44,607 nt of DNA from Deltaproteobacteria bacterium (lineage in GTDB: Bacteria; Desulfobacterota; Dissulfuribacteria; Dissulfuribacterales; UBA5754), in NCBI GenBank assembly GCA_036574075.1, contig JAINCN010000028.1, positions 1 through 44,607 on the forward strand. Reading direction: 5' to 3'. Below, piece after piece: positions 16,665-19,340 of this stretch. Positions within the stretch are counted from its first letter, which is position 1; each line of letters begins with the position of its first letter. A program made the translations under genes and the position numbers. The notes under the pieces are model-generated. The model saw nothing but the letters and a program-made list of their open reading frames with translations. It did no database searches and was not told the origin of the DNA.

Positions 16665-17861
16665 CTATAATTTTTTACGTATGTTTCGCATTCTAAATCC
16701 CATGAGCTCTGTATTCGCATCCATCCCTTTGGCCTGTACGAGCACCTTGTGGGTCTCTCCCATTCCCTGGGGAAGGATGAGCATCTTCACCCCGGCAAGC
16801 ATTGGGGAGAAGGGATCGAATTTTCCTCCGCTCATCTCGTAAAAGGTCTTTTCAAAATCCAGGGATGCAAGAAATGACCACTGGGGTGCAAAACCAAGGG
16901 TAACAAGACCCGCCTCCTCCCCCCAGCGGTGAAGATCACTGAAGTTCACATGTGCAGTTATGTCCTGGTCGCCTGGATCGAGGAGCACATTCTCCCGTAC
17001 TGCATGATCCTTGTACGAAAGGAGGGTCCCTCGATTCCTGGCTGGGTGAAAATAGTCCTTGGCTGAAAATCCGTAATCGATTGTAAATATGAATCCTCTA
17101 TGCATGAGGGATGCGATCTTTTGGATCCATGTCTTCATCCTCAAATTCACCTCAGTCCTATACCCGATGGGAAGGTACGTGGGCAATCCAGATACGTAAT
17201 CCTGAAGGGTCTCCTCGGTGATATCTCGAAGGCACTCCTGGAGTTCTCCATTATCGTTGAGGCAGACGTGGACCTCCTGAAAACCTGTGTCCCCTTTTTG
17301 CACCAAATGGACAGGAAATGCGTCTATGAGTTCGTTCGAAAGGAAGCAGTCGGGCGAAAATGTCAATTCGTCCAGCGTTTCTATCCACATAACACGTTCT
17401 GCCATGGGACCCAGGATGCATTTTTGAAATGATCTCACAGTATCGAAGGGCTCCACAATAACATATCTGAAACGGTCCCCTTCCTTCCTGTCGAGATGTT
17501 CCAGAAGATCCCGGGCAAGTATGGCGGATCCAGCTCCCATCTCCACGATCGTCATGTGATCCTTTTCAAGAAGGGAACGAAACTCACGGATCTGATTGGC
17601 AATGAGTGCTCCAAAAAGGGGGGTTGAAGGTCCTGTTACGAAATCCCCCTTTTTCCCGACAGGATGCTCACCTGTGGAGTAGTATCCTGCGTCTTCATCA
17701 TAGAGACATATCTCCATGAATCGAATGAACGGCACAGGTCCTTGTTTCTGGATGATCTTCTTGATGAACTCGGCCTTTTTAATGGTTTTTTTCTCCTGCA
17801 TATGGTATCTTGGCATGTGCTCTTTGTGGAATACCCTCCCGGTCCACAGGGGCGGATTCAC
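16665..17861 (-). CDS. MidA/NDUFAF7-family SAM-dependent methyltransferase
   Basis: A 398-residue protein of the DUF185 (COG1565) family. Early signatures are PFIRFMEICLYDEDAGYYS and KKGDFVTGPSTPLFGALIA. SAM motif I follows as IVEMGAGSAILARDLL near residues 105-120, then SNELIDAFPVHLV and FTIDYGFSAKDYF. The eukaryotic relative NDUFAF7 methylates an arginine of complex I subunit NDUFS2; the bacterial role is not established. The GTG start at 17861 is chosen because GGAGG lies 6 nt upstream; ATGs at 17816 and 17801 are alternatives. Its GC content (about 45% in a sampled line) is lower than the genes to the left, on the approach to the AT-rich dnaN region. Confidence 0.85.
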   Translation of the reverse strand: MNPPLWTGRVFHKEHMPRYHMQEKKTIKKAEFIKKIIQKQGPVPFIRFMEICLYDEDAGYYSTGEHPVGKKGDFVTGPSTPLFGALIANQIREFRSLLEKDHMTIVEMGAGSAILARDLLEHLDRKEGDRFRYVIVEPFDTVRSFQKCILGPMAERVMWIETLDELTFSPDCFLSNELIDAFPVHLVQKGDTGFQEVHVCLNDNGELQECLRDITEETLQDYVSGLPTYLPIGYRTEVNLRMKTWIQKIASLMHRGFIFTIDYGFSAKDYFHPARNRGTLLSYKDHAVRENVLLDPGDQDITAHVNFSDLHRWGEEAGLVTLGFAPQWSFLASLDFEKTFYEMSGGKFDPFSPMLAGVKMLILPQGMGETHKVLVQAKGMDANTELMGFRMRNIRKKL

Positions 17862-18193
17862 CGACAGCCTCCAATCATGGACTCATTGTTTAAATTTAGG
17901 TTGAAATTTTGTTGAATTTTTATCAGTTAAGAAAATGATGACAATGTAAAAAGTGCCTGACTCGTCATGCCTGACTTGCTCCGGCATCCAGAACATATTG
18001 AAAAAACTGGATTCAGGCCTTAGCCAGAATGATGACAATTTGAATTTTTTCGACTTTTTACGACGCCACCAAAAATAAACATGCAACCATTTTTTTTCAA
18101 GATAAATTTCATTTGAAATATTATTTGATTTCAAGAAGCTGAAGAAGTTTTCAACATTATCAAGAATCTATTATTTATTTAAGGTATATACTT
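17862..18193. promoter_or_regulatory. AT-rich divergent spacer upstream of dnaN
   Basis: No gene was recognised. It should contain the divergent promoters of the MidA-like gene and dnaN. It is very AT-rich, with T and A runs near 18045-18125. I looked for DnaA boxes (TTATCCACA) and found only 7/9 matches such as TTTTCAACA near 18149, so an origin is not supported. Confidence 0.4.
17961..18036. repeat. Imperfect palindromic intergenic repeat
   Basis: CTCGTCATGCCTGA...CATCCAG on the left pairs in part with CTGGATTCAGG...GATGAC on the right. This resembles the widespread GTCAT...ATCCAG/CTGGAT...ATGAC repeats of proteobacterial intergenic DNA. It is a GC-richer island inside the AT-rich spacer. 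Confidence 0.5.
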
Positions 18194-19333
18194 ATGTTAA
18201 ACATAGAAATAAAGAAAAATGATATTATAGAAAAACTGGCAAATATTCAAAGTATTGTTGATAAAAAATCAATAGCAACAATATTAAATAATATCTTTCT
18301 TTATACAAATAATGATAATCTATATTTAGAGGTAACTGATTTAGAAATAAATTACAGAACCAAAATAAAATCTATAATTAAGGAACATGGTGAAATAACT
18401 ATTAACGCAAAAAAAATTTATGAACTTATACGTGAATTTCCATGTGAAGATATCTTTTTACAAGAAAATGAAAATTTATGGATAAGGATTACAGATGGTA
18501 ATAATTTAGATTTCAAAATAGGTGGATTACCACCTGATGATTATCCAAGATTCAAAGAATTAAAAAAAAATAATTCAATTAGAATTGATTCTAATATACT
18601 TAATGAAATGATAGAAAAAACTATAATTTCAGTCTCACTGGATGAAACAAAATATAATTTAATAGGTTTATTGTTTGAATATGAAAAAAAGGATGAAAAA
18701 AACATTATAAGAATGGTTGGTTCTGATGGTCATAAATTAAGTTTAGTTGAAAAATATCTGGATGAATTAGATAAAAATGATTTTTATGAAAATATATCTT
18801 TTATAATCCCCAAAAAGGGCGCACAGGAAATAAAAAAAATTACAGAAAAAAATAATAAAGTTATGTTTGGAGTGGATGGAAAATTTTGTTTTGTAGATAC
18901 AGAAGACGAAACACTTTCCATAAGGCTTGTTGATTCAAAATTTCCAAATTACAAATCTATTATTCCAAAAAATAGAGAAACAATAGTAAAATTTGATAAA
19001 AATTCCATGATCAATTCATTAAAAAGAGTTTCGATAGTAATGATGGATTCAAGTTTAAAAAGTGTATTATTACGTATAAAAAATAATAATATGGAAATTG
19101 AAACAATAGAAAAGGAATTTGGTGAAGCACGAGAAAAAATTGAAGTTGATTATATGGGAAATGATATAATAATTGGATTAAATACAAAACTTCTTATCAG
19201 TTTATTATCAGTCATGAAATCACAGGAAGTAGAAATGACTATTAATGGAAAAAATTCTCCAATTCTTTTATCTGGAAAAGATGACAAGGGGTTTCTCGGA
19301 TTGGTTATGCCTCTTACCAATCTGGAAGGCTGA
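18194..19333 (+). CDS. dnaN: DNA polymerase III beta sliding clamp, extremely AT-rich
   Basis: The 379-residue product has the length and three-domain pattern of the replication clamp. Signs include KIYELIREFP, DLDFKIGGLPPDDYPRF-like spacing, a GLLFEYE...RMVGSDGHKLSLVE block, LVDSKFPNYKSIIPKNRE and the C-terminal LVMPL. It loads on DNA and tethers polymerase and other factors. Base composition is remarkable: sampled lines are about 22% GC, with Lys, Asn and Ile codons dominating, against 45-60% in neighbours. Only the last 60 or so bases approach the local norm. AAGG lies 9 nt before the ATG. gyrB follows 7 nt later; no recF lies between and no dnaA lies upstream. Family assignment is firm despite the skew. 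Confidence 0.92.
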   Translation: MLNIEIKKNDIIEKLANIQSIVDKKSIATILNNIFLYTNNDNLYLEVTDLEINYRTKIKSIIKEHGEITINAKKIYELIREFPCEDIFLQENENLWIRITDGNNLDFKIGGLPPDDYPRFKELKKNNSIRIDSNILNEMIEKTIISVSLDETKYNLIGLLFEYEKKDEKNIIRMVGSDGHKLSLVEKYLDELDKNDFYENISFIIPKKGAQEIKKITEKNNKVMFGVDGKFCFVDTEDETLSIRLVDSKFPNYKSIIPKNRETIVKFDKNSMINSLKRVSIVMMDSSLKSVLLRIKNNNMEIETIEKEFGEAREKIEVDYMGNDIIIGLNTKLLISLLSVMKSQEVEMTINGKNSPILLSGKDDKGFLGLVMPLTNLEG

Positions 19334-19340
19334 ATAATTA

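Follow-up and report, generated by a model that had tools for sequence, protein, structure and literature searches.

The question raised by this locus is why the gene for the β sliding clamp, an essential replication gene, is so much richer in A and T than the genes on either side of it. Composition outliers are routinely taken as foreign genes, and a sequence-only reading of this DNA had offered two accounts: either the native gene had been displaced by an AT-rich dnaN of foreign origin, or the region is subject to a local mutational bias. The window, by which we mean the whole stretch of 44,607 nucleotides that was analysed, contains the following genes around the anomaly.

18194–19333, plus strand: dnaN, β sliding clamp, 379 amino acids and stop; deepest section of the AT-rich valley, with Pfam domains PF00712, PF02767 and PF02768
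19341–21761, plus strand: gyrB, GC 0.52 and third-position GC (GC3) 0.60; beyond the deep valley, on a mild shoulder (genome mean GC3 0.69)
16665–17861, minus strand: MidA-like methyltransferase (PF02636), GC 0.49; it forms the valley's left shoulder

With a GC content of 0.245 (GC3 0.15; 0.17 at fourfold sites), dnaN is indeed strongly AT-rich, the earlier estimate of about 22% comparing with 24.5% as measured. The values first given for gyrB, which starts 7 nt past dnaN (about 50–60%; measured 0.52), and for the MidA-like neighbour (about 45%; measured 49%) were likewise borne out or close. As background we sampled the genome of 1,986,167 bases in stretches totalling 501,634 bases (about 25%), the window included. 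Among the 300 ORFs of at least 200 amino acids in this sample, dnaN being one of them, dnaN has the lowest GC3; the runner-up stands at 0.49 and the other 299 ORFs average 0.69. Correspondingly, 1.1-kb windows in the sample have a mean GC of 0.577 (sd 0.040), and none beyond the dnaN dip falls below about 0.41. As dnaN has the lowest GC3 by so wide a margin, the outlier is real and unique within the sample.

The shift is not confined to third positions. GC12 is 0.29 in dnaN versus 0.48 in gyrB; codon positions 1 and 2 are thus shifted as well, and the clamp protein is affected. Compared with the β sliding clamp family (PF00712, PF02767, PF02768), the DnaN chain nevertheless holds the same three domains at full length and above the Pfam cut-offs (E-values 2.7e-20, 7.3e-17 and 7.4e-22, respectively), and its sole oddity is a composition rich in Lys, Asn and Ile, just as the first reading had described it. 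Moreover, DnaN is under purifying selection, with 89% amino acid identity to the sister species despite 20% fourfold-site divergence, and it is encoded by the sole clamp gene. Judged from its sequence, the clamp is intact.

The boundaries of the AT-rich stretch are as follows.

18061–18193, plus strand: AT-rich intergenic DNA immediately 5′ of dnaN, strongly conserved in the sister species as judged by alignment; proposed unwinding side of oriC
19282–19333, plus strand: right edge of the valley, where GC3 climbs across the final 16–17 codons of dnaN; same position in the sister species
17935–18062, no strand assigned: dispersed REP/MITE-like repeat within the intergenic DNA at the origin, from repeat comparison within the genome and sister alignment

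On the left, the AT-rich stretch extends about 130 bp into the intergenic DNA upstream of dnaN, and the MidA-like gene, some 330 bp away from dnaN, shows no more than a mild shift. The repeat has six diverged copies (77–85%) elsewhere in the genome and, in the alignment of both species, no counterpart in the intergenic region of the sister; it looks like a recent insertion beside oriC.

Both the extreme composition and the sharp 3′ edge would fit the replacement of the native gene by an AT-rich foreign dnaN whose 3′ end marked a recombination junction, and horizontally acquired AT-rich genes of genomic islands are likewise outliers in composition. In contrast to such islands, however, dnaN has a vertical phylogeny, is essential and single-copy, lies in a conserved neighbourhood and is common to relatives. 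In the sister species (G001), a separate contig carries the genes in the same order, including the 89% identical dnaN with a GC of 0.26 and a GC3 of 0.18, so that gene, place and composition are shared and presence is not patchy. In the DnaN tree, the family of the source organism (f1) falls together with three others, f6, f7 and f11 (support 76), within a monophyletic order (99.9); the GyrB tree joins f1 to the same three families (support 96), and genome-based kinship, which is independent of DnaN and GyrB, puts these genomes in one order. When f1 was constrained to group with the very AT-rich clamps of two loci outside the order, L031 and L032, the AU test on DnaN rejected this topology (p-AU 1.65e-39). 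In the protein search, phage and plasmid clamps were at most 30% identical to the source DnaN, compared with 37–49% identity of dnaN within the order. The sequence-only reading had also raised the prospect of another dnaN in the genome; none is present in the source genome.

Taken together, the congruent trees, the dip and 3′ edge shared with the sister, the single dnaN and the distance of the phage and plasmid clamps exclude a recent foreign replacement, and thereby a recent recombination junction at the 3′ edge as well. The claim of replacement has therefore to be given up, and we consider it very improbable; a very old replacement inside the f1/f6/f7/f11 clade is conceivable but would leave the valley in the remaining phylum unexplained. 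Of the observation on which it was built, the abrupt rise in GC at the 3′ end of dnaN stands, since it spans the last 16–17 codons from about position 19282 onward and recurs in the sister; its reading as a recent junction does not. That the source genome is a 66-contig draft speaks for an assembly chimera, but identical gene order and dip on the sister's independent contig, together with a similar dip in the complete, hybrid-assembled genome of the isolate Dissulfurimicrobium hydrothermale, rule out a mis-join for practical purposes.

We then considered how far the anomaly extends beyond this genus. The order was taken as Dissulfuribacterales, and profiles around dnaN were obtained for 27 of its members. 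The GC minimum lies in the last few hundred bases 5′ of dnaN and in dnaN itself, with recovery on both sides being usual. In families f1, f6, f7 and f11, the GC of dnaN is 0.22–0.29, while that of gyrB is 0.33–0.52 and that of the locus 0.34–0.58. Families f9, f4 and f5 show little or no valley, with an apparently unchanged origin layout, and in the relatives G004, G023 and G041 dnaN is ordinary. Similarly AT-rich relatives, named at the outset as speaking against a foreign gene, were thus found in the nearest families; elsewhere the effect is weaker.

The source organism is probably an uncultured member of the same order as D. hydrothermale Sh68, though of another family; the complete chromosome of strain Sh68 comprises 2,025,450 bases with a GC of 49.66% (order Dissulfuribacterales; PMC8780430). 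Among 245 ORFs sampled from D. hydrothermale, with a mean GC3 of 0.55, none lies lower than dnaN at 0.12; gyrB stands at 0.21, and the ORFs on the opposite side reach 0.26, 0.28, 0.26, 0.30 and 0.39 going outward. A second isolated ORF with low GC3 (0.19; G006:C1:1852132-1853547, in the region L291–L292) was noted far from the origin of this chromosome. Outside the order, a dnaN GC of 0.27 accompanies a gyrB GC of 0.50 in L031 and of 0.52 in L032, where the surroundings are at 0.64 and gyrB rises in GC3 over its length, from about 0.2 to 0.9. Both trees assign L031 and L032 to a different clade, so that the extreme state either dates far back or arose more than once. In the source genus and in L031, the valley stops sharply on the right where dnaN ends; in L032 and D. 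hydrothermale this edge is gradual.

These results show that an AT-rich valley centred on oriC–dnaN, of varying depth, occurs across much of the order and the phylum. In the open-access papers searched, judged by title and abstract, we found no account of an AT-rich dnaN or of a GC valley of kilobase scale around a bacterial origin, nor of a recurrent, inherited valley that brings an entire essential coding gene to a GC3 of 0.15 against a genome mean of 0.69.

The position of the valley points to the replication origin. That origins contain AT-rich unwinding elements is well established; such a DNA unwinding element (DUE), however, comprises tens of bases of mostly non-coding DNA. In the source genome AT-rich DNA likewise lies at the putative place of initiation, but here it includes more than 1 kb of essential coding DNA with a GC of 0.24 in a genome at 0.58, non-synonymous positions included. 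The AT-rich intergenic DNA contains a candidate element that precedes the start of dnaN by about 45 bp.

18148–18178, plus strand: BUS-like element, in which the tandem DnaA-box-like 9-mers TTTTCAACA and TTATCAAGA are followed by ATC-TATTATTTAT; matrix hit and inspection by eye

Its trinucleotides resemble DnaA-trios on the complement and point at dnaN. The corresponding element of the sister reads TTCTCAACA-TTATTAACA-ATC-TATTTATTAT, and many members of the order have similar elements, consisting of two 9-mers and then trinucleotides, 40–90 bp 5′ of dnaN; in L047, L048 and L233 such an element precedes dnaN with dnaA upstream. The element was recognised by eye in many relatives, and a scoring matrix was built from 16 other genomes. 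With this matrix, it is the clear best site on the sister contig (score 20.0 versus 8.2) and the second-best site in the source window (score 8.3), with a marginal P of 0.043 for the intergenic region against Markov sequence. An exact TTATCCACA DnaA box was not found near dnaN, where only one-mismatch matches, which may be due to chance, occur; a recurring match of this kind at dnaN +62 lies in a conserved protein stretch and was not taken as evidence. In Bacillus subtilis, the basal unwinding system (BUS), a pair of DnaA boxes with DnaA-trios, is located on the dnaN side of oriC, between dnaA and dnaN (PMC6669920). The source genome likewise has tandem DnaA-box-like sites followed by trio-like trinucleotides just 5′ of dnaN and directed towards it. 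In contrast to B. subtilis, there is no adjoining dnaA in the order of the source organism, and the AT-rich zone spans the whole clamp gene, whereas the B. subtilis unwinding region is the dnaA–dnaN intergenic DNA.

The GC skew agrees with this placement. In D. hydrothermale, it is mostly negative before 430 kb and positive from 450 kb to 1.4 Mb, dnaN being located at 439–440 kb, and it flips back at about 1.4–1.5 Mb, about half a chromosome from dnaN. On the sister contig the skew also switches at dnaN. The change in the source window is weak (–0.019 to +0.040), and its cumulative minimum, near 18 kb in the profile and at 6.3 kb by raw counts, is not robust, so that the argument for the origin rests on the relatives and the sister contig. 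We infer from these data that oriC of the source organism lies beside dnaN.

In the source genus and the other members of the order that were checked, dnaA lies on a different contig, far from dnaN (G000:C47 near 20558, L142 and L163; G001:C86, L141), which permits a comparison between place and gene. Over 142 loci, the GC of dnaN minus that of its surroundings is –0.052 with dnaA upstream (n = 95) and –0.108 without (n = 47), relatedness being uncorrected. The deepest dips are those of L032, the source genome, the sister and L031, with no dnaA found upstream; as the contig of L032 starts at dnaN, it is uninformative in this respect and does not figure in the totals. A dnaA that flanks oriC is AT-shifted too: at such loci GC3 averages 0.551 for dnaA, 0.533 for dnaN and 0.624 for gyrB (n = 43, again uncorrected for relatedness). 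L233 (G163), with dnaA beside oriC, has GC3 values of 0.17 for dnaA, 0.10 for dnaN and 0.37 for gyrB, the valley covering dnaA, oriC and dnaN. In contrast, relocated dnaA is ordinary, with a GC3 of 0.67 in the source genome and 0.57 in D. hydrothermale. The AT shift thus follows the place and not the gene.

This bears on the possibility that selection acts on the codons, transcript or expression of dnaN wherever the gene lies, an explanation that the near coincidence of the deep valley with the dnaN reading frame in the source genus would favour. It is made improbable by the shift of codon positions 1 and 2, by dnaA being similarly shifted beside oriC and unshifted when moved, by the extension of the valley into gyrB in other lineages, and by the ordinary dnaN of G004, G023 and G041.

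Two further observations concern DnaA itself. The DnaA domain of the source genus scores 114.6 bits against Pfam PF00308, compared with about 137–150 in most relatives, which would fit non-canonical DnaA boxes. In addition, one genome carries a second, divergent, adjacent dnaA–dnaN pair on a separate contig (G002:C81:2991-5308), its dnaN being 32% identical to that of the source, which is either contamination or a second replicon.

As to the process that generates the valley, the rate of A↔T change per A/T fourfold site in close pairs is 0.079 in dnaN and 0.072 in gyrB. Fourfold identity is 0.80 in dnaN and 0.73 in gyrB within the source genus, and 0.735 and 0.698, respectively, in pooled pairs. 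Equal A↔T change and a fourfold identity no lower in dnaN indicate that the locus is not hypermutable, and hypermutation is ruled out. The local mutational bias of the sequence-only reading is therefore upheld as far as a local, origin-centred bias common to relatives is concerned, but not as a raised mutation rate. Moreover, fourfold A approximately equals T and C approximately equals G in most dnaN genes examined, which argues against strand-specific cytosine deamination in exposed single-stranded origin DNA. Finally, ORF-free DNA elsewhere in the source genome has a mean GC of 0.48 (14 stretches) versus 0.17 at the fourfold sites of dnaN; dnaN is thus AT-richer than non-coding DNA and has not merely drifted to that level. 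What remains is a shift of fixation, or a balanced shift of the spectrum, towards A/T near oriC.

The latter would be a mutation spectrum biased to A/T at the origin, for example through early-replication nucleotide pools, a different initiation polymerase or repeated opening, rather than an effect of fixation. The valley being centred on oriC and phylum-wide is what such a spectrum would produce; yet total fourfold divergence is not raised, strand asymmetry is absent and the right edge is sharp at the gene end, and we regard it as unlikely. Somewhat less unlikely, though still doubtful, is that the valley is a refuge from a force that raises GC, be it GC-biased gene conversion or selection for G/C across the whole genome, which would be weak near oriC and let genes relax to an AT-biased mutational equilibrium. 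In line with this, the GC of dnaN stays at 0.22–0.29 in f1, f6, f7 and f11, as would be expected if only the rest of the genome followed the force, and the A↔T rate is unchanged. However, a refuge requires a sharp local loss of the force within 1 kb, and ORF-free DNA elsewhere still has a GC of 0.48.

The explanation we favour is that dnaN is AT-rich because of its place, directly 3′ of the side on which oriC would unwind. Fixation biased towards A/T near oriC would maintain the valley, selection may act for easily opened DNA on the side where DnaA unwinds and loads the helicase, and the clamp coding sequence would double as an extension of the origin. The parts of this explanation differ in strength. 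That dnaN is vertically inherited and the valley an origin-centred position effect is very probable. That the cause is selection for a less stable duplex is tentative and falls somewhat short of an even chance; we nevertheless rank it before a local weakness of the GC-raising force, and the latter before a local mutation spectrum. The full statement, namely a native dnaN in an origin-centred AT valley with fixation bias or selection for easy opening, seems to us evenly balanced between right and wrong. Its most far-reaching form, in which the origin takes in the coding sequence of an essential replication gene, and selection for a kilobase-scale, readily melting zone beside the DnaA unwinding site drove dnaN (and a flanking dnaA) AT-rich at a cost in amino acids, repeatedly in one phylum, is conceivable but rather doubtful.

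Several observations count against the favoured explanation. The sharp right edge at the end of dnaN in the source genus and L031 is not predicted by a smooth distance effect, the left neighbour, some 330 bp away, is affected only mildly, and f9, f4 and f5 have little or no valley with apparently the same layout. DnaA and helicase loading are, moreover, known to need far less than an unwinding zone of more than 1 kb. No explanation offered predicts which lineages reach the extreme AT content.

For this group of bacteria, the finding means that the strongest outlier in composition that the genome sample yields is native and essential, and that proximity to the origin, not ancestry, tracks composition. 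It follows as a caution that GC content alone at origins may mislead calls of horizontal transfer or of binning error. Conversely, the valley may serve as an origin-finding signal for draft genomes with dnaA away from oriC. With one cultured member and its complete genome, the order moreover provides a system in which selection for duplex opening, the absence of GC-biased conversion and a local mutation spectrum could be set against each other.
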